Positions 18,812 to 34,089 of a stretch of DNA of 37,906 nt are shown here, one piece after another. The DNA lies in the NCBI GenBank assembly GCA_938045295.1, contig CALINO010000045.1, positions 1-37,906 of the forward strand. The letters are read 5' to 3'. This DNA comes from an uncultured Arenicella sp. (GTDB lineage Bacteria > Pseudomonadota > Gammaproteobacteria > Arenicellales > Arenicellaceae). Within the stretch, counting starts at the first letter, position 1. Each line of letters begins with the position of its first letter. The position numbers and the translations under genes are program-made. The notes beneath the pieces are model-generated. The model saw nothing but the letters and a program-made list of their open reading frames with translations, did no database searches and was not told the origin of the DNA.

Positions 18812-19879
18812 ATTAAACGGCTAAAGTTACTTTTTCTTATTTGCCCTTTTTTGTTTGCTTTTTGTTGGTCTTCGTCTGTGGCCGAAGAGGCTGTGGTTAA
18901 CGACGCTGTGGTTGAGGCTGGGCTTAACGAAACTAAAGAGGCTCTACCCTACCGTCTTTCAGGCTGGAAAGAGGTGTTGGTGAGTGTGCGTAACCTTGAT
19001 GACTATGCCGATTTTTTTCAAAACACGGCGTCTTGGACGTTGATTGAACAAGGAGAGGTGTCAACAGAGCAACTGAAGGCATGGCAGCAAGCTAAGTCGG
19101 CCAGTGCAAAATACCGTTTGTATGCCAACCCAGGCACGGCCTCAGGACACGTTCGTTTGGTGCAGTTTGAGGGTGTGGAGCAACAACTTATCAGGCCGGA
19201 CTCGCAGTCGTGGGATACAGGTGGAATTTTTGACATTAATATGCGCACTCATGATCTTGAGGCGTTGGCCCGAGAGTTGCGTTCGCAAGGGTGGCAAGCG
19301 CGTTCGCCAGTCACTGAATTTTCTTTTGGGCCGTTTGTGGTTAAAGAGTGGATTTCGCAGAATAAAGATGGGTTTGCCGTTGCCTTTATTCAGCGCGTGG
19401 CGCCGGCGTTAGAAGGCTGGCCGCATTTTAAGTCTCTATCAAGAACGTTTAATTCCACGCAAGTGGTTAAAGACATGCCTCGCTCGCTTGAATTTTATGA
19501 AACGGTGTTGGGGTTTAAGCGGTATTTAGAGCACTCTGGTGCCAGTAAAGAGGCTGGTGAAAATGTATTAGGTTTGCCGCATAACCTTACCAATACGGTG
19601 TCGCGTTCTGTGTATATTTTGAATCCGCAAGGCGAAAATGAGGGTTCGATTGAACTGTTGGCTTTTGACGGCATTGTTGGCCGTGACAATGCCAGCCGAG
19701 CTAACTTACCTAATATCGGCATCGCCAGCCTTTCTTTTCCAGTTGTCGGGATTGAGGCTTTGCAAACTCATTTTGAGCGCCACGATGTGCCGTTTGTGCA
19801 CAAACTGAGAGTCATTGATGACAAGAAAAAAATGATTGTTAAAGCGCCTGAAGGGGCGTGGTTGGAGTTCTATGAGTAA
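18812..19879 (+). CDS. Exported protein with two VOC (glyoxalase-fold) domains; likely ATT start
   Basis: 355 residues if it starts at ATT 18812. No ATG lies in frame upstream of residue 100, and the first GTG/TTG-type codon (TTG 18851) would cut off most of the signal peptide. From ATT the sequence reads (M)IKRLKLLFLICPFLFAFCW then SSSVAEEA, a good Sec signal, and GGGAG ends exactly 6 bases before ATT. VOC domain 1 spans about 45-190 and domain 2 about 205-355 (MPRSLEFYETVLGFKRYL ... GAWLEFYE). The usual first-strand His metal ligand is not seen in either domain. It is followed 35 bases later by CpeT paralogue 2. Substrate unknown; periplasmic binding or isomerase role is possible. Confidence 0.8.
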   Translation: MKRLKLLFLICPFLFAFCWSSSVAEEAVVNDAVVEAGLNETKEALPYRLSGWKEVLVSVRNLDDYADFFQNTASWTLIEQGEVSTEQLKAWQQAKSASAKYRLYANPGTASGHVRLVQFEGVEQQLIRPDSQSWDTGGIFDINMRTHDLEALARELRSQGWQARSPVTEFSFGPFVVKEWISQNKDGFAVAFIQRVAPALEGWPHFKSLSRTFNSTQVVKDMPRSLEFYETVLGFKRYLEHSGASKEAGENVLGLPHNLTNTVSRSVYILNPQGENEGSIELLAFDGIVGRDNASRANLPNIGIASLSFPVVGIEALQTHFERHDVPFVHKLRVIDDKKKMIVKAPEGAWLEFYE

Positions 19880-19914
19880 GTGCAAGTTATGAATAAATCT
19901 GAGTGGAGAGCCTC

Positions 19915-20913
19915 ATGAATACAATAGTAATCAAACAATTACGCAATGCGTTTGCCACAGGCTTGTTGGCGTTTTTCAGTAACGCCGTGATTCATTTGCC
20001 ACTCTTTGCTCAAGGCCAAGACAGTACGGTGGCTGACAGAGATATTGTCATCATGGCCGAACTGTTGCCTGGTTTGTATAACAATGCCAACCAATCGTAT
20101 TTTGACGTGCGTCTGAACGTTGAAAAATCAAAACAACACGCCTTTCGTTCGGTGCAGATCACTCGTTTAGAGGACAGTGACTTTAGCGGGTTTGCGTTCT
20201 TACTCACCGAGCAAGGCAAGGGCTCGAATGCTCAGCGCCAATCCGTGATGAGCTTTAGTGTTGATTACGACATGCAAGCCGTTCGTATGAAAACCTATTT
20301 CATAGAAGGCGGTGAGGGCAAACCGTCAGTTAAAAAGGCCGATTACGCGAATGGTTGCGATCTATTGTGGCGGCAAGAGGCCGGTCAGTTTAGGGGGCGC
20401 TCAAGTGCCAATCAGTGCGTTAATAATATACCCGTTGCACGCGACATGATGCTGTCAAAAGACGCGCTGTGGTTCAGCACTAGCGACCAATCAAATGGCG
20501 TTGTTGATGATCATTTCGCGTTAGATCGAGCGCGTATGTTCAGTTGTTATGCTGACTTGCCTGGTGTGGGTGGTGGCCGAGACATTCCATTTAAGCGTTA
20601 CCAGATTAACAATATCCACGACCTTGGTGGTGAAAAGTGGTTTACCACTGATCAAGGCCAAGAGTTGGGAATTAATCTGTTTCGGGTGATGTGGACATTC
20701 AATAATTTGGACGGTGTTTTCACTCGGCCGTCATTAGTGGTGTACGTTAAAACAAAAGAGGCTAATGGTGATGTTAAAGAAGTGGGGTATGCGTGGACTG
20801 AGTCAAATGCTCAGCGCATTGGCATTAACCTAAAGTGGATGTTGGTTAATTGCTATATGGTTTCTAATGAAGACGTGGTGCCGTTCTACAAGACCGACGA
20901 GCCGCGTATTTAA
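19915..20913 (+). CDS. Exported CpcT/CpeT-family protein (paralogue 2)
   Basis: 332 residues from the ATG at 19915, which has GGAG six bases upstream; a GTG at 19903 is less likely. An N-terminal signal peptide (hydrophobic 12-32, cleavage near AQG) is present. CpeT features are GLYNNANQSYFDV, NGCDLLWRQEAGQFRGR and DRARMFSCYADLPG. Cysteines 148, 168, 211 and 313 correspond to those of paralogue 1, with the same 20-residue gap between the first two. HDLGG (235-239) and GYAWTESNAQRIGINLKW mark the shared C-terminal extension. The sequence is clearly diverged from paralogues 1 and 3, suggesting different ligands or roles. It is likely co-transcribed with the double-VOC gene. Confidence 0.83.
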   Translation: MNTIVIKQLRNAFATGLLAFFSNAVIHLPLFAQGQDSTVADRDIVIMAELLPGLYNNANQSYFDVRLNVEKSKQHAFRSVQITRLEDSDFSGFAFLLTEQGKGSNAQRQSVMSFSVDYDMQAVRMKTYFIEGGEGKPSVKKADYANGCDLLWRQEAGQFRGRSSANQCVNNIPVARDMMLSKDALWFSTSDQSNGVVDDHFALDRARMFSCYADLPGVGGGRDIPFKRYQINNIHDLGGEKWFTTDQGQELGINLFRVMWTFNNLDGVFTRPSLVVYVKTKEANGDVKEVGYAWTESNAQRIGINLKWMLVNCYMVSNEDVVPFYKTDEPRI

Positions 20914-20947
20914 GCCTTAGGCTTGATTTTTATTGGGCGTTAGCCAA

Positions 20948-20978
20948 CACCGTGTTCACAGTAACAGTGATCACGGTG
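20948..20978. terminator. Long hairpin between convergent genes
   Basis: CACCGTGTTCAC (20948-20959) pairs with GTGATCACGGTG (20967-20978) with one mismatch around a 7-base loop. It lies between convergent CpeT paralogue 2 and a VOC gene, so it may end or stabilise both transcripts; there is no T tract. A dispersed repeat is the alternative, not testable here. Confidence 0.5.
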
Positions 20979-21005
20979 CTGCGCGCGCTGCCTTTATGGC
21001 GAATG

Positions 21006-21461
21006 TTATAACGGTGGAATGTTGTAAATAACCACTAAGTTTCCATCGTGATCGAGAATACCAACTTCGCGGCCTTCACGCCCATCGTGAGTGATTAATG
21101 CGTCTTCGTGATACACCTTTAAGCCAAGTTCTTTCGAGCCATTCACGACTGCATCCACATCGGCCACGTCTAACACAATAGTCGCGCGTATGGGCGTGGG
21201 CGTGGGGGGTAAAGCTGGGTCAGAAATTTCGGTTAAAGCCATGGAGCGCGGTTGCGATGCCGTGCTCAGAATTGCAAAGCGCATTGTGTGTTTGGTGTCG
21301 ATGCTAAATACATCGTAAGAGTAGGAGTCTGGCTCTGAGTCTTTTTCAAACGTCAATTCAAAGCCTAAAACGTCGCAATAGAACTTATAAGACTGCTCTA
21401 AATTGCTTACTACTAGATTTGCTCGTTGAAAGCGAATTTTATCTTTTACTTTTTCATTCAT
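21006..21461 (-). CDS. Single-domain VOC-family protein
   Basis: 151 residues, cytoplasmic (no signal). Glyoxalase/bleomycin-resistance fold: FQRANLVVSNLEQSYKFYCDVLGFEL at the start, a middle ATIVLDVADVDAVV strand-helix and a final GILDHDGNLVVIYNI with the C-terminal strand. The first-strand His ligand of metal VOC enzymes is replaced by Arg (RANL). It diverges from the aldehyde dehydrogenase, sharing the 117-base region 21462-21578. Role in the cluster: possibly isomerase, lyase or dioxygenase-like; substrate unknown. Confidence 0.85.
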   Translation of the reverse strand: MNEKVKDKIRFQRANLVVSNLEQSYKFYCDVLGFELTFEKDSEPDSYSYDVFSIDTKHTMRFAILSTASQPRSMALTEISDPALPPTPTPIRATIVLDVADVDAVVNGSKELGLKVYHEDALITHDGREGREVGILDHDGNLVVIYNIPPL

Positions 21462-21578
21462 GGTGATCTGTAATGTTGCTAGAGTTTCTAAAAAGGTATA
21501 TTGTTATAAGTATATAACATATACTATAGCATTAATGATCTGAGTATTGTTGAATATTCAATCTTCACCACCAAACGC
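21462..21578. promoter_or_regulatory. Divergent promoter region with two palindromes
   Basis: Between the VOC gene and the aldehyde dehydrogenase lie GTATATAACATATAC (21510-21524, inverted repeat with a 3-base centre), TTAATGATCTGAG (21532-21544, identical to 18695-18707) and TTGAATATTCAA (21550-21561, perfect palindrome). The region is AT-rich with several possible -10 boxes (TATAGT on minus, TACTAT on plus). It probably drives both genes under one regulator. Confidence 0.5.
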
Positions 21579-23039
21579 ATGACGGCATTAACAGATATGA
21601 CTGAGTTACATTCATCACGACAACTAGATGCTCGCAACCCCCGTAGCGGAAAAATTGATTACCAATTCAGCACGCCTAGTTTAAAAGAAGTGGCCAGTTT
21701 AACGGCGAGCCTAAAGGCAAACCAACCGGATTGGCGGGCGCAAGGCGGTGGGTATCGAATTGAGGTGTTGCGTCAATGGCAGGCGGCATTGATGAATGAA
21801 AAAGAGGCGCTGGTTGAAGCCTTAGCAATTGACACCGGTAGGCTTGGTTTGGCTTCGATTGAATTTTTTGCGTTACTAGGTTCCATTGATCGTTGGTGTG
21901 ATTCGGCTCCCGCGCTGCTCACAGAGTCGAGTGTGCAGGCCAAAGCAATGCCCGACGTGGAAATATTTGAAGATTCAGCGCCCTACCCGCTACTGGCCGC
22001 TATTAGTCCTTGGAACTTTCCATTGCTGCTGTCTTTCATTGACGTTATACCGGCCTTATTGGCTGGTTGCGCCGCCATTATCAAGCCCAGTGAAGTAACC
22101 CCACGTTTTGCTGTGCCATTAATGAGAAGTATTTCAGCGGTACCCGAACTGGCGAATGTTTTATCCGTTGTTTCTGGCGACGGCGTTACCGGTCAGCAGC
22201 TTATTGCTGAGTCAGACGTGGTGGCGTTTACCGGAAGCGTAGCAACCGGTAAAAAAGTAGCACTGGCGGCGGCGGAGAATTTCATTCCGGCGTTTCTGGA
22301 GCTTGGCGGCAAAGACCCAGCGGTAATTTTATCTGGCTCTGACTTAGAGCGTGCGGCCACCTCAATACTCAGAGGCTCGGTTTCAGCCACTGGGCAGGCT
22401 TGCCAATCGTTGGAACGTATCTATGTAAATACAGAAGACGCCAGCGATTTTACGGCGCTTTTGGTGAACAAAGCCAAGCAAGCGGAGTTAAGCATAGACG
22501 ACCCCAAGCACGGTTCGATTGGGCCGCTAATTTTTGACCGGCAAGCTGAAATCATTGCCGAGCATTTGCGCGATGCGGTTGCCAAAGGCGCGGTTATTGA
22601 ATGCGGCGGCAACGTCATAGATAACGACGGCGCATTCTGGATTGAGCCAACGGTATTAAGCCAAGTTGATCACTCAATGAAGGTGATGACTGAAGAAACG
22701 TTCGGCCCAGTGATGCCCATCATGACGTTTGATAGTGTGGGTGAGGCCGTGCGCTTGGCGAACGATACCCAGTATGGCTTATCGGCGGCGGTGTTTGGCC
22801 CCGATGATGAATCGGCGATAGCGGTTGCCCGTCAAATCAATGCCGGCGGGGTCAGCGTGAACGACAGTGGCATGACGTCCATGGTGTTTGAAACTGAGAA
22901 GAGTGCTTTTGGTTGCTCTGGCATGGGGCCGTCGCGTGTTGGTGGTGCGGGGCTAACACGATTTTTAAGACGTAAGTCGTTGTATGTAAATCGCGGCGCG
23001 ATAACGCCATTGTCGGCATTTAACGAACAAGACCTTTAA
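21579..23039 (+). CDS. NAD(P)-dependent aldehyde dehydrogenase
   Basis: 486 residues, full-length ALDH superfamily. Catalytic residues: N146 in SPWNFP, K169 in IIKPSE, E241 in LELGGKDP and nucleophile C275 in GQACQS. It oxidises an aldehyde to its acid (semialdehyde or aromatic/aliphatic aldehyde not distinguishable). No clear Shine-Dalgarno before the ATG at 21579; an in-frame ATG at 21597 is possible. It begins the series ALDH-VOC-MDR-MFS-hydrolase. In the cluster it is the natural consumer of an aldehyde made by the amine oxidase (inference). Confidence 0.94.
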   Translation: MTALTDMTELHSSRQLDARNPRSGKIDYQFSTPSLKEVASLTASLKANQPDWRAQGGGYRIEVLRQWQAALMNEKEALVEALAIDTGRLGLASIEFFALLGSIDRWCDSAPALLTESSVQAKAMPDVEIFEDSAPYPLLAAISPWNFPLLLSFIDVIPALLAGCAAIIKPSEVTPRFAVPLMRSISAVPELANVLSVVSGDGVTGQQLIAESDVVAFTGSVATGKKVALAAAENFIPAFLELGGKDPAVILSGSDLERAATSILRGSVSATGQACQSLERIYVNTEDASDFTALLVNKAKQAELSIDDPKHGSIGPLIFDRQAEIIAEHLRDAVAKGAVIECGGNVIDNDGAFWIEPTVLSQVDHSMKVMTEETFGPVMPIMTFDSVGEAVRLANDTQYGLSAAVFGPDDESAIAVARQINAGGVSVNDSGMTSMVFETEKSAFGCSGMGPSRVGGAGLTRFLRRKSLYVNRGAITPLSAFNEQDL

Positions 23040-23075
23040 CTAAGACCTGTACAACAAAGATAAGCGGATTTAACA

Positions 23076-23564
23076 ATGAGCAGCGAGTTTGAACGAGTAA
23101 GAAATATCATTAAGCGCACCACCCTAATCGTGCGCGACATTCAAGAGTCTAAACGGTGGTACGAATACGTTCTTGGTATGACCACGTATTATGACAAAGA
23201 ATTTATCTTGTCAGGCAATGGCCTTGCCGCCGGCAAGGCTGGAGATAAAACGCACCTGATGATTCTTAAGTGCGATGATCCTGAAATCGGCATGATTGGT
23301 TTATTGCAATGGCTGGATCCGGTTATGCCAGCTCCGCCGATTGAATACAAAATTGGTTACGGTAACCCCACGTTTGTGGTGGCCTCAGATGACGCCCGAA
23401 AAACGCACGCTCGCGCTCTGGAATTAGGTACGGTCATTCATTCAGAGCCGCACGATTGGTCAACCATGGGTGCCAATGACAAAATGAAAAACTTTGTTGG
23501 TTTGTCTCTATTTGATCCAGACGGTTACTTCTTTGAATGTAATCAATTGGTATCAGAGGGCTAG
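23076..23564 (+). CDS. Single-domain VOC-family protein
   Basis: 162 residues, cytoplasmic. IIKRTTLIVRDIQESKRWYEYVLGM is the VOC N-terminal module and LSLFDPDGYFFECNQL the C-terminal strand, with a usual C-terminal Glu ligand position. As in the other VOC domains here, the first-strand His is replaced (Arg/Thr in KRTTLIV). It lies 36 bases after the aldehyde dehydrogenase and 5 bases before the MDR gene, so it is part of the same operon. Function unassigned. Confidence 0.88.
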   Translation: MSSEFERVRNIIKRTTLIVRDIQESKRWYEYVLGMTTYYDKEFILSGNGLAAGKAGDKTHLMILKCDDPEIGMIGLLQWLDPVMPAPPIEYKIGYGNPTFVVASDDARKTHARALELGTVIHSEPHDWSTMGANDKMKNFVGLSLFDPDGYFFECNQLVSEG

Positions 23565-23569
23565 ACTCA

Positions 23570-24607
23570 ATGACGGTTGAGCCGCTACCAGAGTCTAACC
23601 TGCAATGGTGCGTCGCTCGGCGCCCTAAAGGTAATGTGGTTGCGCAAGATTTTCGCTTAACCGAATCGCAGATTCCCGACTGCAAAGACGGCCAAATATT
23701 ACTCAGTACGCTGTATTTAAACCTTGCGCCAGTCATGCGTGATTACATGTCTGGAAAGTCAGTGGCCGGCGAGGCACCATTGAATATCGGTGACGTCATT
23801 CACGGTCGAGGCGTGGCGCAGGTTTTGGTCTCAAAGCACCCAGACTTTGAAGTGGGGGATGTGGTGCAAGGGCAATTAGGTTGGCAGTTATTCAAAGCCT
23901 CATCGGTGACTGACGGCGAGCGCATTAGCAAAATTCCAAACCGAGGCGTGTCCTACGGTTACAGCTTAGGTGCCTTAGGCATGACCGGCTTTTCAGCCTA
24001 CTTTGGTTTTATTGAGCGCGGCCTTCCCAAAGCCGGTGACACTGTAGTGGTTTCCGCTGCCGCCGGTGGTGTGGGTTCTATTGTGATTCAGTTGGCGAAG
24101 ATTCACGGTTGCCGAGTGATTGGAATTACCGGCGGCGCCGAAAAATGCCAAGCGATTTCACAATGGTGTGATGACACCATCGATTATAAAAATGAATCCG
24201 TTGCCGAGCGCTTGGCTCAATTATTGCCAAACGGTCTCGACATTTATTTTGACAATGTGGGCGGTGACACCTTAAGTGCTTGCCTGAATCATTTGGCGAT
24301 GGGCGCGCGCGTTGTGCTGTGTGGTTCGATTTCTGAGTATTTGCTCGATCAACCGTACGGCGTTAAAAATTACACCAATTTACGCAGAGTGAACGCCAGC
24401 ATGAATGGTTTCTTTGTGTATAACCATGCCGCTGATTTTGCCACCGCAGAAGAGCAATTAGCGCAATGGGTGACGGCCGGTGAGCTGCAGCCTGTGGTTG
24501 ATATCGCTGAGGGTTTTGATGCCATGCCCACAGGTCTAGCACGCTTGTACTCACACAAAAATATTGGCACGGCTTATTGCCGCGTACGAGAAATCCAAAC
24601 GGCGTAG
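23570..24607 (+). CDS. Zinc-free MDR NADP-dependent oxidoreductase (CurA/PTGR-like)
   Basis: 345 residues. The N-terminal segment LYLNLAPVMRDYMSG and GDVIHGRGVAQVL are typical of the leukotriene B4 dehydrogenase/curcumin reductase branch. The nucleotide motif SAAAGGVGSIVIQLAK (AxxGxxG) and DIYFDNVGGD follow; no structural or catalytic zinc Cys cluster is seen. These enzymes reduce the C=C bond of alpha,beta-unsaturated ketones or aldehydes with NADPH. In the cluster it may saturate an enone intermediate. Starts 5 bases after the VOC stop. Confidence 0.9.
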   Translation: MTVEPLPESNLQWCVARRPKGNVVAQDFRLTESQIPDCKDGQILLSTLYLNLAPVMRDYMSGKSVAGEAPLNIGDVIHGRGVAQVLVSKHPDFEVGDVVQGQLGWQLFKASSVTDGERISKIPNRGVSYGYSLGALGMTGFSAYFGFIERGLPKAGDTVVVSAAAGGVGSIVIQLAKIHGCRVIGITGGAEKCQAISQWCDDTIDYKNESVAERLAQLLPNGLDIYFDNVGGDTLSACLNHLAMGARVVLCGSISEYLLDQPYGVKNYTNLRRVNASMNGFFVYNHAADFATAEEQLAQWVTAGELQPVVDIAEGFDAMPTGLARLYSHKNIGTAYCRVREIQTA

Positions 24608-24662: not shown

Positions 24663-26000
24663 ATGAGTCAGAACAAAGCATTTGAATCTCCGTACCCGGG
24701 TGCTAAAAGCGCCTGGTTTATGGTTGCATTATTGACCATCGCTTATGTATTCAGTTACATCGATCGATACATTCTCAGTTTGTTGATCGAGCCAATCAAG
24801 GCCGACATGGACTTAAGTGATGAACAAATTGGCTTAATATTAGGTCCGGCGTTTGGCTTTTTGTATGTGTTTGCCGCGTTGCCGATTGGTTGGATGGTTG
24901 ATCGAAGTCGCCGTACTTGGATTGTCGGTGTTGGGGTAACGATTTGGTCGTTTGCTACCGCTGTATCCGGCATGGTATCTAACTTTTGGCACTTATTTTG
25001 CGCTCGCATGATGGTGGGTTTGGGCGAGGCCACACTCAGCCCATCGGCAATGTCCATGATTGGTGACAGCTTTCCACCGGAAAAACGCGGAAAACCCATT
25101 TCAGTGTACGTGGCAGCATTATCAATTGGCGGCAGTTTGGCGTCGCTGATCGGTGCCGGTGTATTGGTATGGGCGAAAACCGCCGATAAAATCAGCTTAC
25201 CCTTTTTTGGAGAATTGGCCGCTTGGCAACTGACCTTTTTAGCCGTAGGCTTGCCGGGCTTAGTGCTGGGTTTGATTTTTTTCTTTTTAAAAGAACCGCC
25301 AAGAAGGCCTCAAGTTGTTGAAGACATTGACGTAAAAGGCAATGGTGTTGGCGATGCATTGCGTTATGTCGCTAATAACTGGGCGGTGTATTTAGGTTTT
25401 ATTTCGTTGGCATGCGTGATGGTGGTGATTGCATATAGTCACTTCTTTTTGCCATCAACCTTTGAGCGTACTTGGGGCTGGGCGGCTGAAAAATACGCCT
25501 TCGTCAACGGTTCAATTTTGTTAGTGGTTGGCCCAATCACCGTGGTGACTACAGGTTATCTCTCTGATAAGTGGATGCAGGCGGGGGTCGAGGATGCGGC
25601 ACTGAGATTACTTATTATCGGCTTCTTGATTATGCTGCCAGCGGGTTCGCTTACGATGTTTATGCCGACTCCTGAATTAGCCTACGCCGTGTTGACCATT
25701 TCAAATATTGGCATTGCCATTGTGTCAACAACGGCCATCACCGCCCTACTGGTGATCACGCCGTCTCAAATCCGTGGGCAAATCACCGCCTTGTATTACA
25801 TGGTGCTCGGTCTAACCGGCTCATTTTTAGGCTCAACATCCGTCGGTACCTTATCGACGCGCATTTTTGGTGAAGAAAACATTCGTCACGCTATGGCGGC
25901 GGTGCCAGTACTGTATGGAGTCATTCCCCTATTGTTGATTCCAATAACCATGAAACTGTATCGAGCGCAGTTGGCACGCATTAGTGCGGCTGCAGAGTAA
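24663..26000 (+). CDS. Spinster-type MFS transporter
   Basis: 445 residues with about 12 membrane helices. It carries the MFS loop 2-3 motif GWMVDRSRRTW, the N-terminal SYIDRYILSLLIEPIKAD typical of the spinster branch, and GLGEATLSPSAMSMIGD. Spinster homologues in proteobacteria often sit next to TonB-dependent receptors and catabolic enzymes and are thought to move lipids, aromatic acids or steroids. It has AAGAGGA before the ATG and 55 bases from the MDR gene. Likely inner-membrane importer (or exporter) for the cluster substrate. Confidence 0.92.
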   Translation: MSQNKAFESPYPGAKSAWFMVALLTIAYVFSYIDRYILSLLIEPIKADMDLSDEQIGLILGPAFGFLYVFAALPIGWMVDRSRRTWIVGVGVTIWSFATAVSGMVSNFWHLFCARMMVGLGEATLSPSAMSMIGDSFPPEKRGKPISVYVAALSIGGSLASLIGAGVLVWAKTADKISLPFFGELAAWQLTFLAVGLPGLVLGLIFFFLKEPPRRPQVVEDIDVKGNGVGDALRYVANNWAVYLGFISLACVMVVIAYSHFFLPSTFERTWGWAAEKYAFVNGSILLVVGPITVVTTGYLSDKWMQAGVEDAALRLLIIGFLIMLPAGSLTMFMPTPELAYAVLTISNIGIAIVSTTAITALLVITPSQIRGQITALYYMVLGLTGSFLGSTSVGTLSTRIFGEENIRHAMAAVPVLYGVIPLLLIPITMKLYRAQLARISAAAE

Positions 26001-26027
26001 TGCGTTGAGTTCAATAAGGTATTAGCT

Positions 26028-26822
26028 ATGAAACGATTTTATGTGGATGGGCCATTTGGCCAGGTTCATTGCCTTGAGTGGGGCAGCGATGGTTCGTTGC
26101 CGCCGTTAATTTGTTTGTCGCCGTCACCGTTTAGTAGCAAGGCTTATTTAACTCTGGCGCCCTTATTGGCGCAGCAGCGGCGTGTTATCGCCATTGACTA
26201 CCCGGGTTTCGGAAACTCACAGGCAAAATCTCAAGGCGGTGAGTTGAGTATTAACGATTTGGCTCATGTTGTTCAGGCGGTGGCCGATGCGTGTTCACCC
26301 ACCGTGGCGGTTGACCTGTTTGGTTTTCATACTGGCACCTTGGTTGCGGCTGAAATGTCGGTTGAATACCCAGCCAGAGTAAACCGTATGGTGCTTGCTG
26401 ATGTGCCGTTTTTTACGCCCGAAAAGCAAACTGAGTTATTGGAGAAGACACCCGCCATTATGCCTATCGACGCTGAATTCAGTGCGCTTGAAGGCACGTG
26501 GCAATTCTGTGTTACCAAGAAACTAGAGCACATACCACTTGCCCGAGCTCATCAAATGTTCGTGGATCATATTAGCTCTGGTGAGGGCGGTAACAGTGTG
26601 TTTAGAGCGGCGTTTAGTTACTCTTGCGAGTCGCGCTTTAAGCAAGTAACCGTGCCCACATGGGTGCTGGCGACCAAGTCTGGGCTGTATGATTTTACGT
26701 GCAAAACCGCCGATACAATCAGTACCGCAACCTTGGTTGAATTGCCTCATATCAGTGCGGCCGTTCTGGATGCGGGTGCCGATGAAATCGCCAATACTGT
26801 GCGTGATTTATTAGAAAAATAG
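26028..26822 (+). CDS. Alpha/beta-hydrolase-fold protein with His at the nucleophile position
   Basis: 264 residues. The fold is clear: oxyanion region LSPSPFSS, RRVIAIDYPGFGNS, nucleophile elbow, VNRMVLADVPFF and a late His in ELPHIS (H241). The elbow, however, reads G99-F-H101-T-G103, so the usual Ser/Cys/Asp nucleophile is replaced by His. A possible acid is D222 (GLYDFT). I believe a GxHTG subset of this superfamily exists, so it is more likely a specialised form than a mutation; ordinary ester hydrolysis is doubtful. It follows the MFS gene by 27 bases. Confidence 0.85.
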   Translation: MKRFYVDGPFGQVHCLEWGSDGSLPPLICLSPSPFSSKAYLTLAPLLAQQRRVIAIDYPGFGNSQAKSQGGELSINDLAHVVQAVADACSPTVAVDLFGFHTGTLVAAEMSVEYPARVNRMVLADVPFFTPEKQTELLEKTPAIMPIDAEFSALEGTWQFCVTKKLEHIPLARAHQMFVDHISSGEGGNSVFRAAFSYSCESRFKQVTVPTWVLATKSGLYDFTCKTADTISTATLVELPHISAAVLDAGADEIANTVRDLLEK

Positions 26823-26990: not shown

Positions 26991-27413
26991 ATGAACGTAA
27001 ATAAAATACTACCCATCTTAACGATATTCTGCATTGTGCCGTTGTTGTCGGGCGCCGCCTTAGCCAGTAAAGAAGATCAAGCAGAACAAACAACACTCAA
27101 TCCAGCGCAGCTAAAGCTTGGCAAGCGTTCGTTTATTCGTTGCCAAGCTTGTCACACCTTAGGCGCTGCAGAAGCGCATCTTACTGGGCCAAATCTACAT
27201 GGCCTATTTTCTTCCACGGCCGGTGAAAAAGAAGGGTTTGCTTACTCTGAAGTGTTGGTGAAATCACAAATTAAATGGACTGAGGACAATATGAAGGAGT
27301 GGTTGAGGTCACCATTTACGTTTATACCGGGTAATAAAATGGCGTTTGTTGGCATTCAAAACGACCGTGAGCTAGAAGCCTTAATTGCGTATTTAAAAGA
27401 AAAAACCAAATAG
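26991..27413 (+). CDS. Periplasmic class I cytochrome c
   Basis: 140 residues. Signal peptide 1-25 (hydrophobic 6-24, ALA-S cleavage), one haem-binding site C51-Q-A-C54-H55 and the distal ligand Met117 in GNKMAF; GPNLHGLF is the usual class I loop. It resembles cytochrome c2-like electron carriers. It lies 49 bases before the Tat-exported amine oxidase, so it is the likely electron acceptor of that enzyme, as CycN is for nicotine oxidoreductase NicA2 in Pseudomonas. Confidence 0.93.
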   Translation: MNVNKILPILTIFCIVPLLSGAALASKEDQAEQTTLNPAQLKLGKRSFIRCQACHTLGAAEAHLTGPNLHGLFSSTAGEKEGFAYSEVLVKSQIKWTEDNMKEWLRSPFTFIPGNKMAFVGIQNDRELEALIAYLKEKTK

Positions 27414-27462: not shown

Positions 27463-28911
27463 ATGAAGAGTAAGAATATTAGTCGGCGGCAGTTTTTTAA
27501 GACCACGGGCGGGGTGGCTGCAATGGCCGCTGCGCCGGCAGTTAAAGCAACGCCCAAGTCTGACTACGACACTATTGTGATTGGCGCTGGTTTATCTGGC
27601 CTGCATGCGGCGTCTATTTTACAAGACAACGATCTGAACGTGTTGGTGCTTGAAGGGCGCCAACGTTTGGGTGGGCGCGTTTATACACTCATGCATGTGC
27701 CGGGTAGGCCGGAGGCGGCTGGAGAGTGGATTGGGGGTAATTATGCGCGCATGATTAACACCATTAAAAAGCTGAATCTTGAGTTTTTCATACCTGAAGG
27801 TGGCTCCAGCAGGCTTGGTGGTTGGGCTTACGATATTAAAGGCCAATTTATCAGTGAGTCTGATTGGGCAAGCAGCGACCTCAACCCGTTGAAAGGTGAT
27901 AACCGTACAATTTTGCCGCACCGCATGTTAAGCACACTCACTAATCAAAATAATCCATTGGCCAATCAGCCGTTAGATGCGTGGTTAAAGCCAGAGTTTG
28001 CTAAGTACGACATACCGTTTGACCAATACCTTGAAAAGCAAGGTTTGGGCGATGAAGCTCGGCGTTTAATGGACGTAACCATTCACACCAGTCACATGTC
28101 TAACACCTCAGCGTTGCACGAGCTGCGCCGTTACCACGTTAATTCGTTTAATGGTAAACATAAATTCTTTGAAGGCAGCAGCTATGCGCAAATCAAAGGT
28201 GGTAATTCGTTATTACCGCAGGCGATGGCAAAGTCGCTGAACAACCCAGTGTTGTTAGGCAAAACGGTGGTGCATTTTGAACAGAGCCCAACAAATGTAA
28301 CAGTGCATTGCGCTGATGGCACCCAGTACACCGCCGATACGGTCATCAGCAGCATTCCCATGCCGGTACTCAGAGACATTACGTTTTCACCCCGATTGCC
28401 AGTGCATATGCAGGCTGCGGTGAATGAGGTTGATTATGGTTTGTCGATACAAGTGCACTATTTAATTACGCGGCGTTACTGGGAAGATGACGGTATGGCG
28501 CCTTCACTTTGGTCAGATCGCAGCATTGAACGGTTTGGCGCACGCAATTTAGATAAGAAAGATGGGCCTGCCGCCGGCGTGGCGTTTATCAATGGCGAGG
28601 CGGCACACAAGTTCAGGTTAATGAGTGACGATGCCATTTTTAAATACGTTGCCAATGAACTCGCTGAGCTGCGCCCCTCAATGAAGGGTGCGTTAAAACC
28701 CATTATGATTCAGTCTTGTGAGCGTGATCCACACGGTGCGGGTGATTGGGTGTATTGGAAGCCCGGCCAAGTTGGTAGGTACGCGGGTAACATGCGTCAA
28801 AGTCACGGCCGCATTCACTTTTGTGGCGAACACACCGCGATTATGGAGCGAGGTATGGAAGGTGCGTTTGAGTCTGGTGAGCGCGCGGCATTAGACGTGT
28901 TGTTCTCTTAA
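27463..28911 (+). CDS. Tat-exported flavin amine oxidase/dehydrogenase
   Basis: 482 residues. A twin-arginine signal (S-R-R-Q-F-F-K, 7-13, then an Ala/Gly-rich stretch to about 30) sends a folded, FAD-loaded enzyme to the periplasm. The FAD site is VIGAGLSGLHAA (39-50), then LEGRQRLGGRVYTL and the C-terminal FCGEHTAIMERGMEGAFESGERAA, all flavin monoamine oxidase hallmarks. It would oxidise an amine to imine/aldehyde plus ammonia; with the adjacent cytochrome c it is probably a dehydrogenase rather than an H2O2-forming oxidase. AGGAG lies 8 bases before the ATG. CpeT paralogue 3 follows after 42 bases. Substrate unknown. Confidence 0.92.
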   Translation: MKSKNISRRQFFKTTGGVAAMAAAPAVKATPKSDYDTIVIGAGLSGLHAASILQDNDLNVLVLEGRQRLGGRVYTLMHVPGRPEAAGEWIGGNYARMINTIKKLNLEFFIPEGGSSRLGGWAYDIKGQFISESDWASSDLNPLKGDNRTILPHRMLSTLTNQNNPLANQPLDAWLKPEFAKYDIPFDQYLEKQGLGDEARRLMDVTIHTSHMSNTSALHELRRYHVNSFNGKHKFFEGSSYAQIKGGNSLLPQAMAKSLNNPVLLGKTVVHFEQSPTNVTVHCADGTQYTADTVISSIPMPVLRDITFSPRLPVHMQAAVNEVDYGLSIQVHYLITRRYWEDDGMAPSLWSDRSIERFGARNLDKKDGPAAGVAFINGEAAHKFRLMSDDAIFKYVANELAELRPSMKGALKPIMIQSCERDPHGAGDWVYWKPGQVGRYAGNMRQSHGRIHFCGEHTAIMERGMEGAFESGERAALDVLFS

Positions 28912-28953: not shown

Positions 28954-29943
28954 ATGCGAAACGTACTCTGCAAATTTTTTGTTACCACTGGATTGATTTG
29001 TGTCGGGTCGAATCTGGCCTTTTCTGAGCCAAACCCACTTGCCCGAGATTTGATTAAGTTAACCGATGCGTTTGAAGGCCAGTTCGACAATGAAGCACAA
29101 GTGTGGTTTGAAAATGACTGGCGATGGAAAGGCGATGACGCGCACAAGCATCGGCGCAATCACGCTGTTCATGTGAGGGTTGAAGCGCCTCAATTTGGTG
29201 AGTACGTTTTTTATGTCGAAGAATACAGTGACGATGACATAAATAAAATTTGGCGGCAACGCATCGCCAGTTTTGATATCGACAGCAATCGAGGCTTGCG
29301 AATGAGGTTGTATTTCATTAAGGACGCAGAAAAATACACCGCCTCTAATGCCGCTGAATTAATTGCTAAATTGCCGAAAGACAGTGCCTCTAACCTGCCT
29401 GAGTGCGATGTGTGGTTTGCCCGTCTTGGTGAGCAATATCACGGTTCAATGGATGACAAGACTTGCGTATTTGGCGAGGGTGATAAGCGCCGATATTCAC
29501 AGCACGACATTATTTTGTCTGAGAACCAGTATTGGCGAATCGATAAAACTTGGTTGCTATCAAACGGTGAGCTTCACGCCGGAGAGAAATCATCAGAGCA
29601 TTTTAAAATGCGCCGTGCAAATATATACACCTGCGAGGTTCGTGTGCCGGCGGTTAGCTATATTCAGCCTGACCCTAAAGACGCGGTATTTAAAGACTTA
29701 ATACTCCACAGCCAAGGTGGTAAAGCTGAGTTTGTTAGCCCTAAAGATGGCAAAACATACTACTTACAATTGCGTGAAAAAGAATACCCGTATTACAAAA
29801 CCGGCGCTGATTTCTTTCTGTTTCGTATTCGCGAAGTTGGCGCAAAGTTATCCTTAGTGACGGTAACCACTGAACCCAAGCCTCGTAAGCTGTCGGCTAA
29901 TGTTGGCTCTATGCTGGCTTTCTGTGAATTGATTGAAGACTAA
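28954..29943 (+). CDS. Exported CpcT/CpeT-family protein (paralogue 3)
   Basis: 329 residues with a signal peptide (1-24). This is the copy closest to the classical family: FEGQFDNEAQVWFEN (40-54), VFYVEEYSDDDINKIWRQRI (85-104), LRMRLYFIKDAEKY, ECDVWFARLGEQYHGSMDD, and HDIILSENQYWRID. Cysteines 151, 171, 227 and 324 match those of the other two copies, with the same 20-residue gap between the first pair. HSQGG (252-256) marks the C-terminal extension. It follows the amine oxidase closely and is probably co-transcribed, suggesting it binds that enzyme's substrate or product (inference). Confidence 0.87.
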   Translation: MRNVLCKFFVTTGLICVGSNLAFSEPNPLARDLIKLTDAFEGQFDNEAQVWFENDWRWKGDDAHKHRRNHAVHVRVEAPQFGEYVFYVEEYSDDDINKIWRQRIASFDIDSNRGLRMRLYFIKDAEKYTASNAAELIAKLPKDSASNLPECDVWFARLGEQYHGSMDDKTCVFGEGDKRRYSQHDIILSENQYWRIDKTWLLSNGELHAGEKSSEHFKMRRANIYTCEVRVPAVSYIQPDPKDAVFKDLILHSQGGKAEFVSPKDGKTYYLQLREKEYPYYKTGADFFLFRIREVGAKLSLVTVTTEPKPRKLSANVGSMLAFCELIED

Positions 29944-30011
29944 CGCTCACTGTTTGGCCTGTTGCTTAACCGTGCCGGTGTGTGTGCGCCGCGATGATTG
30001 TGATAAGCATT

Positions 30012-30049
30012 AAAAAAGCCCCTTGTTAATATCTAGCAAGGGGCTTTTT
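30012..30049. terminator. Bidirectional terminator between CpeT paralogue 3 and the TonB receptor
   Basis: AAAAAAGCCCCTTG (30012-30025) pairs with CAAGGGGCTTTTT, an 8-base GC-rich core flanked by A and T runs, so it works for both converging genes. Confidence 0.92.
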
Positions 30050-30071
30050 AGAGACTGCTATTGGTTTAGTT

Positions 30072-32537
30072 TTAGAACGAGTACTTCATTCTTAAACCAA
30101 CTTGGCGCTTATCTCTTAAGCCAACCACAGTGCCTTCTCTGGTGAAGTCAAAGAAACCGCCTGGTGCTGTTCGAACGGCGAAGCTCAGATCGGCAAAGTT
30201 GCTTCCTGCCGTTGGTGCGTCTTCGTCAAACAAGTTGGTAACGAATAATTCCAAGTTCAACTTATCTCCGCGTAAACCAAAACGTAAGTTGGCTTCCAGC
30301 GCGCTGTCCAGTTCAGTCGTATTGGTGTTACTGTCGTAATACTTGCTGCTGTAGAACATGTCTGCGCGGGTATACCAAGAAGAGAAATTACCCCAGCTTG
30401 TTGGCCGCTCATAGGTGCCGTTTAGCGAGATTTGAGTGGGTGCATAACGTGGGGCTTCTTGGCCTTCAACGTTCGCAGCGCTACCAAAAACGTCACCAAA
30501 GTCGCCCGTGCCAGCTCCCGCAGGGAATGAGGCTATTTCGGCGTTGACGTAAGCAAATGAGCCTCCGAACTTCAAGTGCTCAGTGGCTAACCAAGACGCG
30601 TCTATCTCGATGCCCGAGATATCCGTTGAAGCACCATTACTGGTGAATGACACGGTACGTCGTGGGTTTGGTGCATTTGGAGTGGTGTCAACCACGGTTT
30701 CAATAGAGCGAAAAATTTCATCTTTACGTTCCATCATGAACAAGGCGGTATTAATGGCTAACCGGCCATTAGCCAGCTTTTGCTTCCAACCAAGTTCGAG
30801 ATTGGTTAATGACTCTTCTCCGAAAGTAATGCTGGCTTCTGGCGCTAACATCGCTAACTCAGCCAATTGAGTCGCATCTAAAGAACCAATTTCTGGGTTG
30901 AAGCCACCCGGTAAGTTACCTTCACTGTAGGTTGCATAAAGGGTAGTGTTATCAGACGGCTCATACTTTAAAGTAGCGCGTGGCAGAGTGTTGGTGATGG
31001 TTGCTGGTGAAATATCAGTTAAGTCACCGTCGCGAATTTCATCTTCTTGATAGCGAGCTTCAACGGCCAGCGACCATTGGTCGGTAAATCGGTAATCGAC
31101 TGAACCGAAAACGCCGGTAGTTGTGGCGCCAGTTGTAAACGGTTGTGCGCGAAAAATATCACCGAATAAAATAGTTGGGCCAAAGAAGCTGGCGGTGCCA
31201 CTGATACCTAAAATTTCGATATCCACATAACTGGCACCGAGTTTCCAATCGAACTTGTCGGTGGTGCCTAATAGTCGTACTTCTAATGACTTGTCTTCAA
31301 TCTCTTGAGAAATGAAAGACATGAAAGAGTTATCGGGTGAACTATCAAAGTCGCTCCAATAACCAAACGCTTCTTCGTTGTATCCGGCTAATACTGATAA
31401 TGAAATATTGTCGGTTAATTCAAAGTCGCCGTGTATGTCGAGTCGAGTTGAGTCCAGCTTTAAACCAAACTCGTCTACATTTAGCAGGTTGTAACTATTA
31501 AACCGTGCCGTATCTGATGATAACCGGCCGTCATTAAGGTATGCGTTTCTAAAGCGTTCAATCGAGGCTGTATCTGAATTAATACCAATGCGCTCGGCTG
31601 TTGGCTCTGCGGTGACGCCATTAAATACTGACTCAGTACGAGTGCCGTCACGTGGCGGTCTGGGAAGTGAGTCGGCTTGATTGGCAACACCGTTATTGAG
31701 TGCAAAGCCACCGAAGTTGTGGAACGTAACGCCATTAGTTGCAATGAACGCGGCCGTGCCATCATCGACTTCGCGGTAAGAGCCACGAACTTTAATGCGT
31801 GTTTTATCGTTAGGGGTAAACACCAGCGTGCCTGATACTGAATGGTGCTGTTCATCACCCAGTGATTGACCCGGAACAGCGGAATTTTCAAAATCGCCGT
31901 CGTCTTTTGCAAAGTTGACACTCAATCGCCCAGCAAGGCTCTCGCTGATACCGCCTTCTATTGATGCACCGACGCGAGTCTCGCCTTCACTTGCTACCGT
32001 AATATCAATGTCGGTTTGCAGCTCTTGGCCTGGGTCTCGAGTTACGTAATTAATGGCGCCTGAAAAGGTGTTACGGCCGAATAATGCGGATTGTGGGCCT
32101 TTAATGATTTCTACCCGTTCTAGCTCATTAATGCCTATCGTTTGTTCGCCGCCACTTAAGTATATGCCGTCAAGAAAAATGGTCGCGGTTTGTGATAGTC
32201 GGCTACCGGTGGCAAAGAAAACACCACGAAAACGAGGTGTTGTATTGGTGCGGGCATCGGCTTGGTTAAACTCTTCGATGAACAAGCCGGGTGTTGCTTT
32301 TGAAACTTCGATAATGTCTTTGTAGCCGGCATCATCGAGTTCTTGTTTGCCAAACACGGACACAGCCAGAGGCGTGTCGATGAGTGTTTCTTCGCGTTTT
32401 CGCGCGGTAACAATGATTTCCTCTAAGGTAATCGTTGCTTCTTGTTCTTGTTGTGCACTAACGTGCGGTGTGATTGCTGCTTGCGCTAGAATGGCAGTAC
32501 TTATTGCCAGACTTAACTTTTTTTGGATAAATTTCAT
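30072..32537 (-). CDS. TonB-dependent outer-membrane receptor
   Basis: 821 residues. Signal peptide (1-28), TonB-box-like EEIIVTARKRE, plug domain with VEIIKGPQSALFGRNTFSGAINYVTRDPG, then a 22-strand-type barrel ending in aromatic Phe (RQVGLRMKYSF). GAGG lies 5 bases before the ATG. The plug type is that of receptors for organic compounds and carbohydrates in marine and sphingomonad-like bacteria, not a haem receptor with the FRAP/NPNL motif. It is the likely entry gate for the cluster substrate; the substrate cannot be read from sequence. It diverges from the ferredoxin-reductase gene and has a well-formed promoter. Confidence 0.95.
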   Translation of the reverse strand: MKFIQKKLSLAISTAILAQAAITPHVSAQQEQEATITLEEIIVTARKREETLIDTPLAVSVFGKQELDDAGYKDIIEVSKATPGLFIEEFNQADARTNTTPRFRGVFFATGSRLSQTATIFLDGIYLSGGEQTIGINELERVEIIKGPQSALFGRNTFSGAINYVTRDPGQELQTDIDITVASEGETRVGASIEGGISESLAGRLSVNFAKDDGDFENSAVPGQSLGDEQHHSVSGTLVFTPNDKTRIKVRGSYREVDDGTAAFIATNGVTFHNFGGFALNNGVANQADSLPRPPRDGTRTESVFNGVTAEPTAERIGINSDTASIERFRNAYLNDGRLSSDTARFNSYNLLNVDEFGLKLDSTRLDIHGDFELTDNISLSVLAGYNEEAFGYWSDFDSSPDNSFMSFISQEIEDKSLEVRLLGTTDKFDWKLGASYVDIEILGISGTASFFGPTILFGDIFRAQPFTTGATTTGVFGSVDYRFTDQWSLAVEARYQEDEIRDGDLTDISPATITNTLPRATLKYEPSDNTTLYATYSEGNLPGGFNPEIGSLDATQLAELAMLAPEASITFGEESLTNLELGWKQKLANGRLAINTALFMMERKDEIFRSIETVVDTTPNAPNPRRTVSFTSNGASTDISGIEIDASWLATEHLKFGGSFAYVNAEIASFPAGAGTGDFGDVFGSAANVEGQEAPRYAPTQISLNGTYERPTSWGNFSSWYTRADMFYSSKYYDSNTNTTELDSALEANLRFGLRGDKLNLELFVTNLFDEDAPTAGSNFADLSFAVRTAPGGFFDFTREGTVVGLRDKRQVGLRMKYSF

Positions 32538-32928
32538 TGCCCTCGCCTCATATTATATTAGATTTTTTTTACTACTCACTACTATAATACATAATGACAT
32601 ATCATTATATCAATGTAGAAAAGACCTTTTCTTTTGCTCTGGTTTTATTTTTTCTGTAAGTTTTTGTTTTTAATGAAATTATTATTTTCAATAGTAATGG
32701 AAAAGCCAGTAAAGGTGCCTTCGAAAGGCTGTAATACCAGGTTAAATAGACAGTTTATGTAGGGTTTTCGGTATTTGATGCAGGGTTCTGTGACAAAATA
32801 CATTAAAGCAGTTAAGCATAATTTTTTTGTTAATTATCCTTTGCCAGAATAGGCACAGCTAGCCGATATGGTTGCGCCCTAGTAACGTAATAATTAATTG
32901 TTCGGCGTTCATCAAGAGGAATCAAACA
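32538..32928. promoter_or_regulatory. Divergent intergenic region, TonB receptor / reductase
   Basis: 391 bases, AT-rich, without any supported gene. The receptor side holds the promoter and operator-like element listed separately. The reductase side has no clear -35/-10, only AAGAGGA (32914-32920) before its TTG start. Long T and A runs (near 32561 and 32640) may bend the DNA. Confidence 0.5.
32584..32613 (-). promoter_or_regulatory. TonB receptor promoter containing the shared 20-base element
   Basis: On the minus strand TTGATA (-35, plus 32608-32613) and TATTAT (-10, plus 32584-32589) are 18 bases apart, each 5/6 to consensus. The element TGACATATCATTATATCAAT (32595-32614) covers the -35 and most of the spacer and matches 18730-18749 at 18 of 20 positions; its core TGACATATCA is nearly palindromic. 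A repressor bound there would block RNA polymerase. Confidence 0.6.
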
Positions 32929-34089
32929 TTGGAAAACGTGGTCATTGTGGGTGCCAGTCATGCAGCCACGGAAGCTATTTCATCATTAAGAAAGTTAGGC
33001 TGGGCAGGCGGTATTAGCCTGATTGGCGATGAGCCTGACTTACCTTACCAGCGCCCTCCATTGTCGAAAGCCTATTACCAGGGTGACATGACTGAAGACA
33101 AGCTGTCGATTAAAAACGCGAAGTTTTATGACAATGCGCAGGTTGATTGCCGCATAGGTCAGCGGGTTTCCTTGATTGATCGACCGTCGTCAGAAGTGGT
33201 TCTCAGTCAGGGCGAGCGCTTGGCTTACAGTAAGTTGATTTTGGCCACCGGAGCGCGTGCCCGGCTATTACCGGTGCCGGGGGCTGAAGCGGCTAACGTT
33301 ATGTATTTGCGTACCAAGGCCGACGTTGATTTAATCAAGCAACGTGTTGGGGCTGGTAATAAGCTGCTCATCGTTGGTGCCGGTTACATTGGTCTTGAGC
33401 TGGCTGCTTCGGCGGTTAAACAGGGGGTGGAGGTGGTGATTTTAGAGGCTCAAGAACGCGTTTTAGCCAGAGTCACCAGCCCGGTTATTTCTGATTTCTT
33501 TGAGAAGGTGCACGTTGAGGCCGGCGTTGACCTACGTTTAGGCGTTAGCTTAACGGAGTTTGAACACGGTGCTGAACGCAGTAAGGCCAAATTAGCTGAT
33601 GGCTCTGATATTGAATTTGATTGCGCCGTAGTGGGCATTGGCGTAATGCCGAATATCGAAATTGCCGAACAAGCAGGGTTACTGTGCGACGACGGCATTG
33701 TGGTGAATGAGTTTGCCGCCACTCAAGACGCCAATATTTTTGCGGTTGGCGATTGCTCAAACCATCCCAGTCTGTTGTATCAACGTCGGCTAAGGTTAGA
33801 GTCGGTGCCCAATGCCGTGGGGCAAGCAAAAACCGCGGCATTGGCAATTTGTAATCAAGCGCAAGCGTACAATCAATTGCCTTGGTTTTGGTCTGATCAG
33901 TACGATATTAAAATGCAAACCGCCGGCTTGTTTAATGATTACGATAATGTCAGTGTTGACGGCGATATTCAGGCAAAGAAGTTTTCGGTGTCGTACTTTA
34001 AAGGTGGTCAACTGATTGCGCTTGATGCCATCAATTCTCCGGCTGAGTTTATGAAAGCAAAGAAAAAGATCAGTGCTGAGCTAGCTTAG
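32929..34089 (+). CDS. Putidaredoxin/rhodocoxin-reductase-like FAD oxidoreductase
   Basis: 386 residues from TTG 32929, which has AAGAGGA 8 bases upstream and starts directly at the FAD motif (ENVVIVGASHAATEA); an upstream TTG at 32872 would add an unlikely tail. The second dinucleotide motif LLIVGAGYIGLELAASAVKQG binds NADH, and IFAVGDCSNHPS holds the FAD-contacting Asp. The DLPYQRPPLSKAYY segment is typical of the CamA/ThcD class, which feeds electrons through a [2Fe-2S] ferredoxin to a P450 or Rieske oxygenase. Neither partner lies in the window. Divergent from the TonB receptor. Confidence 0.92.
   Translation: MENVVIVGASHAATEAISSLRKLGWAGGISLIGDEPDLPYQRPPLSKAYYQGDMTEDKLSIKNAKFYDNAQVDCRIGQRVSLIDRPSSEVVLSQGERLAYSKLILATGARARLLPVPGAEAANVMYLRTKADVDLIKQRVGAGNKLLIVGAGYIGLELAASAVKQGVEVVILEAQERVLARVTSPVISDFFEKVHVEAGVDLRLGVSLTEFEHGAERSKAKLADGSDIEFDCAVVGIGVMPNIEIAEQAGLLCDDGIVVNEFAATQDANIFAVGDCSNHPSLLYQRRLRLESVPNAVGQAKTAALAICNQAQAYNQLPWFWSDQYDIKMQTAGLFNDYDNVSVDGDIQAKKFSVSYFKGGQLIALDAINSPAEFMKAKKKISAELA

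Follow-up and report, generated by a model that had tools for sequence, protein, structure and literature searches.

The T-type phycobiliprotein lyases CpcT and CpeT (PF06206; structures 4o4o, 4o4s and 5hi8) and the plant protein CRL (6lix) have their domain and fold in common with CpeT_C, a putatively exported protein encoded on a 37,906-nucleotide stretch of DNA from an uncultured Arenicella sp. (contig CALINO010000045.1 of assembly GCA_938045295.1; the whole stretch is referred to here as the window). CpeT_C belongs to a gene cluster at positions 18812-34089, in which the adjoining gene encodes AmOx, a flavoprotein sharing the fold of the flavin amine oxidases (PF01593; Z 31-34), including NicA2 and monoamine oxidase (MAO). 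NicA2 uses a cytochrome c, and the likenesses between AmOx and these enzymes extend to a twin-arginine translocation (Tat) signal and an adjacent cytochrome c gene. A second locus of the same genome encodes PDA1 and PDA2, which share a family with the allantoinase PuuE and with the characterised cyclic imidases HxnM and AAY98498 (Pseudomonas putida), both described as related to the PuuE family in PMC9304392. This locus also encodes ISO1, an isochorismatase-family protein resembling maleamate amidase and N-carbamoylsarcosine amidohydrolase, and it is like pathways of the mesaconate, citramalate and dimethylmalate type in its coenzyme A (CoA)-transferase III, its 3-hydroxy-3-methylglutaryl-CoA (HMG-CoA) lyase-like enzyme (HMGL) and, in flavobacterial counterparts, a LeuD/DmdB-type hydratase. 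To our knowledge, no bacterial route has been described that takes chlorophyll, phycobilins or similar pigments, or the maleimides left at the end of their breakdown, into central metabolism.

We suggest, with a probability of roughly 0.45, that the cluster enables its hosts to take up and oxidatively degrade an open-chain tetrapyrrole released by algae or cyanobacteria, either a bilin or a bilin-like oxidation product of chlorophyll or haem. The catabolic system for such a compound would be accessory and co-inherited, and the window would encode the half of it that acts in uptake and in the periplasm. Slightly more tentative is the full proposal of an undescribed, complete degradation of open-chain tetrapyrroles to dialkylmaleimides and then to central metabolism, horizontally transferred between algae-associated Gammaproteobacteria and Bacteroidota. 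What we infer of ligands, reactions and the order of steps is drawn from gene content, homologies, the modelled fold of CpeT_C, the amine-oxidase residues lost from AmOx, gene adjacency and co-occurrence. The openly licensed literature yielded nothing on point for heterotroph CpeT proteins, bilin catabolism or bacterial maleimide degradation, and no described pathway with this gene set, in agreement with the original prediction for this DNA.

That prediction had described a candidate cluster for uptake and oxidation and had made co-conservation in related genomes its touchstone. The GTDB genome collection was scanned with AmOx, in the form of two peptide patterns, which returned 34 loci; L058 and L059 were short partial matches without an AmOx open reading frame (ORF) and were excluded, leaving 32 AmOx loci. 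A CpeT-family gene adjoins AmOx in 30 of these 32 orthologue loci, as counted with a CpeT profile built from a set (A2) containing many of the sequences that it then found, and BLAST with CpeT_C of the window alone labels the same AmOx neighbours. The loci fall in two phyla, with hosts in Arenicella, Maribacter, Croceitalea, Muricauda, Aquimarina, other Flavobacteriaceae, Saprospiraceae and a few proteobacteria. Neighbouring genes were clustered by single linkage, which may merge subfamilies, in 35 stretches (the window and 34 others; L026, on the contig of L020, was omitted together with L054, L058 and L059, and L020, L021 and L025 come from one genome). Relatives of cytochrome c recurred in 29 stretches, of the MDR reductase in 28, of VOC proteins in 23, of the double-VOC protein in 22, of an amidohydrolase in 20 and of one DUF1838 group in 18. 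In the congener G001, CpeT_C-AmOx-cytochrome c lies on a single contig together with another CpeT-AmOx pair and the TonB receptor (69%); the cytochrome c gene also adjoins AmOx in G013, and a further AmOx (54%)-CpeT (40%) pair was found in another gammaproteobacterial family (G716). It is near certain that these genes form a rare, co-inherited, catabolic-looking set that is real as a set in two phyla, and its patchy spread suggests horizontal sharing. The prediction survives this test of co-conservation.

The family assignment of the CpeT proteins was examined against PF06206, for which the curated cut-off is 21 bits. CpeT_C passes at 73.3 bits, CpeT_B falls just under at 18.9 bits and CpeT_A gives no match. 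BLASTP aligns CpeT_A with CpeT_C over 306 aa at 27% identity (E 5e-18), CpeT_B matches CpeT_C at E 2e-12 and CpeT_A matches CpeT_B at E 5e-12; CpeT_A was likewise recovered from its own genome with the CpeT_C query (E 6.6e-18), and proteins best matched by CpeT_A (28-34%) lie near AmOx in L041, L045 and L046. The CpeT family of the original prediction holds, with CpeT_B below the Pfam cut-off, and a third member, CpeT_A, had been missed between rpoD and tRNA-Met, outside the predicted span. Elsewhere in this genome, PF06206 also matches on contigs C17 and C87. The ORF on C87 (L017:860-2008, 382 aa) combines a CpeT domain with a stretch 29% identical to the VOC protein encoded at 21006; it is a CpeT-VOC fusion, which fits joint working of the two families.

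CpeT_C was modelled with AlphaFold2 from a 25-sequence alignment (mean predicted local distance difference test score, pLDDT, 89.5). Foldseek with this model returned CpcT first (4o4o at 3e-11, 4o4s at 8e-11), followed by CRL. Z scores were 21.9 for CpcT alone, 21.5 for CpcT with phycocyanobilin, 20.0 for plant CRL and 16.5 for phage CpeT, with the next entry at 9.8, and the model superposes on CpcT at 2.8 A over 184 residues as a CpcT-like beta-barrel. An aromatic-x-N-x-x-Q motif near the N-terminus is common to CpeT_C, CpcT and phage CpeT. CpeT_C differs from CpcT and CRL in its signal-peptide-like N-terminus, in a C-terminus of approximately 100 aa that is additional to the CpcT fold, and in having heterotroph hosts and oxidoreductase neighbours; a lyase role is not expected. 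Signal-peptide-like N-termini and a modelled bilin-lyase barrel suggest that the CpeT proteins may be periplasmic ligand carriers.

AmOx has the fold and flavin adenine dinucleotide (FAD) motif of PF01593 flavin amine oxidases (E 5e-51), and its model (pLDDT 79) gives Z scores of 34.5 to MAO-A and approximately 33-34 to NicA2 and 6-hydroxynicotine oxidase. It differs from MAO and NicA2 in its active site. We take Lys296 of MAO-B to be catalytic, Tyr398 and Tyr435 to form the aromatic cage, and a Cys to link the FAD. In the alignment to MAO-B, Lys296 is replaced by Gln330, Tyr398 by Asp428 and Tyr435 by a gap, and Gly427 stands at the position of the FAD-linking Cys; Q330, G427 and D428 are invariant in 19 aligned AmOx sequences. 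AmOx thus lacks both the active-site lysine and the aromatic cage of MAO, and the amine-bearing substrate that had been predicted has been down-weighted. When paralogues are included (15 proteins), position 330 is Gln in 13 and Lys in two distant paralogues (contig C43 of the same genome, and G011), so the system may still include a genuine amine oxidase encoded elsewhere.

The genome itself (G000) comprises 2.99 Mb in 92 contigs and is 99.4% complete; the window is its contig C45. A complete route within 15 kb had been envisaged; this is not supported, and the probable partner locus is on contig C43. The link is seen in G001, where the contig with the CpeT, AmOx and TonB receptor genes also carries PDA1, PDA2, the isochorismatase-family proteins ISO1 and ISO2, CoA-transferase III (CaiB), an HMGL-like lyase as well as an FAD-linked oxidase; CpeT_B-VOC-ALDH-VOC-MDR genes (ALDH, aldehyde dehydrogenase), 57-91% identical to those of the window, follow at some distance. 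Between C43 and G001, identities are 74% for PDA1, 84% for PDA2, 88% for ISO1, 82% for CaiB, 68% for HMGL and 68% for ISO2. On C43, LeuC/LeuD-like genes lie approximately 10 kb upstream of the PDA module, with a gene of the arylmalonate-decarboxylase family, which we take to be related to maleate isomerases, in between. In Maribacter algarum (L093/L094) and the flavobacterial loci L095 and L097, the order is HMGL-LeuC-LeuD-CMD-CaiB-...-ISO1-PDA2-PDA1-transporter, in which hidden Markov models named LeuC/LeuD in L095 only and an SBF transporter in L094 (and in L047), the other genes being assigned by likeness.

PDA1 and PDA2 are polysaccharide-deacetylase-family proteins, homologous to the PuuE/HP0310-type family that contains proven imidases. 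Among solved structures, PDA2 matches PuuE best (3cl6, 1e-25) and then 3qbu (8e-17); PDA1 matches 1z7a, a conserved hypothetical protein (2e-26), PuuE 3cl6 (2e-23) and 3qbu (5e-11). Unlike PuuE, they occur as two adjacent paralogues and do not reach the PuuE equivalog score. ISO1 finds its best match in 4l07/4l08 (4l07 at 2e-28); 4l07 is presumably the maleamate amidase Ami of P. putida S16, which a literature check did not confirm. The context of ISO1 sets it apart from the amidases it resembles: PDA1 and PDA2 are its neighbours, joined in several genomes by LeuCD, CaiB and HMGL. The best NCBIfam model for the C43 CoA-transferase is succinyl-CoA:mesaconate CoA-transferase, under its cut-off; the C43 LeuC scores just under the leuC cut-off, and the flavobacterial LeuD (hydratase small subunit) passes that of the LeuD/DmdB family. 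Because the genome has a second LeuC on C59 (44% identical to that of C43, and beside a 515-aa, LeuA-sized HMGL-family frame) and further HMGL-family genes besides that of C43, the C43 LeuC and HMGL need not serve leucine metabolism; the view that LeuCD and HMGL are necessarily leucine enzymes was set aside, and the probability given to the main proposal is unchanged. Compared with mesaconate, citramalate and dimethylmalate pathways, this module would be fed by imidase-like and maleamidase-like enzymes. Judged from these homologies, it reads as disubstituted-maleimide catabolism, from imide through half-amide and alkylated maleate to hydration, CoA ester and cleavage. None of this depends on what the CpeT family is called, and it leads in the same direction; the pigment that had been floated tentatively in the original prediction has thereby gained support from outside the window.

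PDA genes were also seen in four other Gammaproteobacteria (L112-L115 in G743, G740, G542 and G424); three of these stretches also hold ISO1, and two (G740 and G424) LeuC/LeuD. No AmOx was labelled within the same 20 kb. There seems to be a wider imide-to-dicarboxylate module, apparently undescribed. Since it also occurs without CpeT (twice beside LeuCD, in G740 and G424), the PDA part would be drawn upon by the CpeT system without belonging to it exclusively.

Co-occurrence of the two halves was examined at several scales. PDA2 (E <= 1e-20) was found in 20 of 24 genomes, comprising four of the genus and the genomes of 20 of the 32 AmOx loci; one of the four genus genomes, G017, has only a distant AmOx paralogue (33%). 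Among 299 Flavobacteriaceae genomes (AmOx E <= 1e-100, PDA2 E <= 1e-80, at most four candidates per genome scored for AmOx), the two proteins are confined to three genomes, G061, G106 and G295, each of which has both. With the seed genome G061 left out, two of 298 coincide, for which the chance is approximately 1 in 44,000 if the genomes were independent, which they are not. AmOx and PDA2 share a contig in six genomes, at distances of approximately 6 kb (G064), 7 kb (G001), 14 kb (G106), 19 kb (G062) and 54 kb (G061 and G295). Across 18 genomes of the genus, AmOx-family proteins (E <= 1e-60, paralogues included) are present in G000, G001, G011, G013 and G017, and PDA2 (E <= 1e-80) in G000, G001, G003, G011 and G017. 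In 369 Gammaproteobacteria, PDA2 occurs in five, CpeT in five and both in two (G000 and G743).

If the system acts on an open-chain tetrapyrrole, the TonB receptor would import the pigment across the outer membrane and the exported CpeT-fold proteins would bind it. Tat-exported AmOx would dehydrogenate it and pass electrons to the cytochrome c of the neighbouring gene, and the exported double-VOC protein could assist in binding or cleavage. The MFS transporter would move the fragments inward, where the MDR, VOC and ALDH enzymes may reduce or oxidise them. Breakdown would be completed by the C43-type locus, which shares a contig with the first locus in several relatives: PDA1 and PDA2 would open dialkylmaleimides, maleamate-amidase-like ISO1 would release ammonia, the LeuCD-type hydratase would form dialkylmalates, CoA-transferase III would activate these, and their cleavage by the HMG-CoA-lyase-like enzyme would yield an oxo acid plus an acyl-CoA. 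PMC7318184 lists methyl-ethyl-maleimide, methyl-vinyl-maleimide and hematinic acid as oxidation products of haem and chlorophyll.

Several observations weigh against this proposal. No known bilin meso-bridge-cleaving enzyme was identified, and maleimides went undetected in the leaf samples reported in PMC7318184. Imide specificity of the PDA proteins is a guess because their scores (118.1 bits for PDA1 and 118.2 bits for PDA2 of G000) fall far under the PuuE equivalog cut-off (TIGR03212, 424.6). N-carbamoylsarcosine amidohydrolase (26st, 2e-26) is almost as good a match for ISO1, and the top model for the flavobacterial CoA-transferase is formyl-CoA transferase (under cut-off). The HMGL proteins score as ordinary members of the HMG-CoA lyase subfamily, above its cut-off, and the C43 LeuD passes that of isopropylmalate dehydratase leuD. 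PDA2 is absent from G013 (98% complete, with AmOx, CpeT and MFS), G074, G075 and G078, and the two halves are separable, since PDA2 without CpeT and CpeT without PDA2 each occur in three of the 369 Gammaproteobacteria. At L053 and L054, the two AmOx loci without CpeT, both of one Pseudomonadales genome, no CpeT gene was found on the readable downstream side, which is its usual position; a contig end lies 226 bp from the start of one of these loci and 315 bp from that of the other. Lastly, ecology fits algal pigments in general. Some of the cluster-bearing marine bacteria come from seaweed, and the L049 isolate was matched by name to strain 4-528, which came from macroalgal surfaces and, according to PMC12313589, had its highest reads on the green alga Ulva compared with other sources; for this reason phycobilins are not singled out. 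According to PMC10942906, vaceletii is a sponge isolate.

The alternative that survives best, although clearly the less probable, is that the substrate is another hydrophobic or conjugated algal compound, such as a carotenoid, oxylipin, polyphenol or sterol. The CpeT barrel would then be a lipocalin-like carrier of general use, and the imidase locus would be a separate pathway that happens to have the same hosts. It would accommodate G013 and the three further AmOx genomes without PDA2, the three Gammaproteobacteria with PDA2 and no CpeT, the curcumin-reductase-like character of the MDR enzyme and a fold that extends to plant CRL. It does not account for AmOx and PDA2 sharing the same three of 299 Flavobacteriaceae and lying approximately 6-54 kb apart on one contig in six genomes, nor for the top structural relatives of CpeT_C being the CpeT family, bilin-bound CpcT included.

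Catabolism of a nicotine-like N-heterocyclic alkaloid is unlikely. Here a NicA2-type flavoprotein would use the cytochrome c as acceptor, and maleamate would be formed and hydrolysed by ISO1. The AmOx model is as near to NicA2 and 6-hydroxynicotine oxidase as to MAO-A, the cytochrome c gene adjoins it, and ISO1 resembles 4l07, presumably a maleamate amidase. Set against this are an AmOx without the catalytic Lys and both cage Tyr, CpeT-fold proteins that are left unexplained, and PDA, LeuCD, CaiB and HMGL proteins that, as we understand the nicotine route, have no role in it.

A little less likely still is nitrogen catabolism of the ureide, hydantoin or creatinine type. This would give a place to the PuuE matches of the PDA proteins, to the nearness of ISO1 to N-carbamoylsarcosine amidohydrolase and to HydA/HydB-like (hydantoinase A/B) genes in G017 and M. 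algarum, yet LeuCD, CaiB and HMGL imply branched dicarboxylates, the PDA scores are far from a PuuE equivalog, and both CpeT and AmOx go unexplained. That these are neighbouring genes without a common function is very improbable: other genes occupy the cluster side of LysM in the seven relatives examined and FdR, the ferredoxin reductase, was not seen beside AmOx elsewhere, but the same genes recur jointly in two phyla, AmOx is rare overall (3 of 299), and chance neighbourhood is largely ruled out by two-phyla conservation together with AmOx/PDA2 co-occurrence.

Tetrapyrrole breakdown, were it confirmed, would add catabolism, outside photosynthesis, to the roles of the bilin-lyase fold and would explain a family of MAO-fold proteins without ordinary amine-oxidase residues. 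Chlorophyll is made and degraded at a scale of 10^12 kg per year (PMC7318184). Phycobilins add to this turnover of pigment. With the genes named and an existing strain carrying them (Maribacter algarum RZ26), the question is directly testable.

Features of the window are collected in Table 1; ORF and Pfam analyses found every gene of the original prediction in its place within 18812-34089. Export was judged by eye from N-termini, except for the flavoprotein, which has a Pfam TAT_signal match.

Table 1. Features of the cluster and its upstream flank in the window; percentages are identities to orthologues in other genomes.
Feature	Position	Strand	Evidence
CpeT_A, CpeT family, putatively exported	17278-18321	+	BLASTP to CpeT_C; no Pfam match
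tRNA-Met	18492-18568		
Double-VOC protein (dVOC), putatively exported	18812 (ATT) or 18851 (TTG) to 19879	+	Pfam Glyoxalase 1.8e-11, C-terminal half
CpeT_B, CpeT-like, putatively exported	19903-20913	+	PF06206 18.9 bits (cut-off 21)
VOC protein	21006-21461	-	PF00903 2e-13; G001 79%
ALDH, succinic-semialdehyde-dehydrogenase-like	21579-23039	+	PF00171 3e-99; G001 69%
VOC protein	23076-23564	+	PF00903 4e-10; G001 91%
MDR-family enone reductase, curcumin-reductase-like	23570-24607	+	ADH_N_2 1.9e-27; G001 72%
MFS transporter	24663-26000	+	PF07690 4e-42; G013 80%, G001 68%
Alpha/beta hydrolase	26028-26822	+	PF00561 1e-10; G001 52%
Cytochrome c550-like, putatively exported	26991-27413	+	PF00034 4e-8; NF043008 2e-23, under cut-off
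AmOx, Tat-exported MAO-fold flavoprotein	27463-28911	+	PF01593 5e-51; TAT_signal
CpeT_C, putatively exported, T-type bilin-lyase fold	28954-29943	+	PF06206 3e-20, 73.3 bits
TonB-dependent outer-membrane receptor	30072-32537	-	PF00593 1e-32; G001 69%, same cluster
FdR, Rieske-dioxygenase type	32872-34089	+	Reductase_C 4e-21; NF041682 2e-94, under cut-off

Several proteins of the cluster resemble named NCBIfam models without reaching their cut-offs: NF006916 is the top model for ALDH, MDR matches NF058644 at 9e-85, and the TonB receptor matches both siderophore and haem receptor models. The G001 orthologue of CpeT_B (57%) adjoins the matching VOC-ALDH-VOC-MDR genes. Because no relative of FdR was labelled beside AmOx in the neighbourhoods compared in other genomes, its membership of the cluster is uncertain. 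Homologues of dVOC (25-65% identity) lie near CpeT- and AmOx-family genes of relatives. The dvoc gene lacks an ATG: an ATT at 18812, approximately 6 nt downstream of a purine-rich motif resembling a ribosome-binding site, would give a full signal-peptide-like N-terminus, and the first standard start is the TTG at 18851; this points to a rare ATT start or else a sequence error.

The gene block is accessory or rearranged: in stretches from seven relatives, rpoD, the tRNA and the cluster genes are absent from the cluster side of LysM. A footprint of insertion between tRNA-Met and LysM/HisC was sought in the same stretches and none was found. A protein with a beta/gamma-crystallin domain is encoded at 35920-37011, next to an aminotransferase gene, and relatives of both are kept beside LysM in two members of the genus (L125 and L131). 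DUF1838 proteins, which may be part of the pathway judging from their recurrence near AmOx, include L047:12525-13439, L091:3129-4028 and one on C43 of G000.

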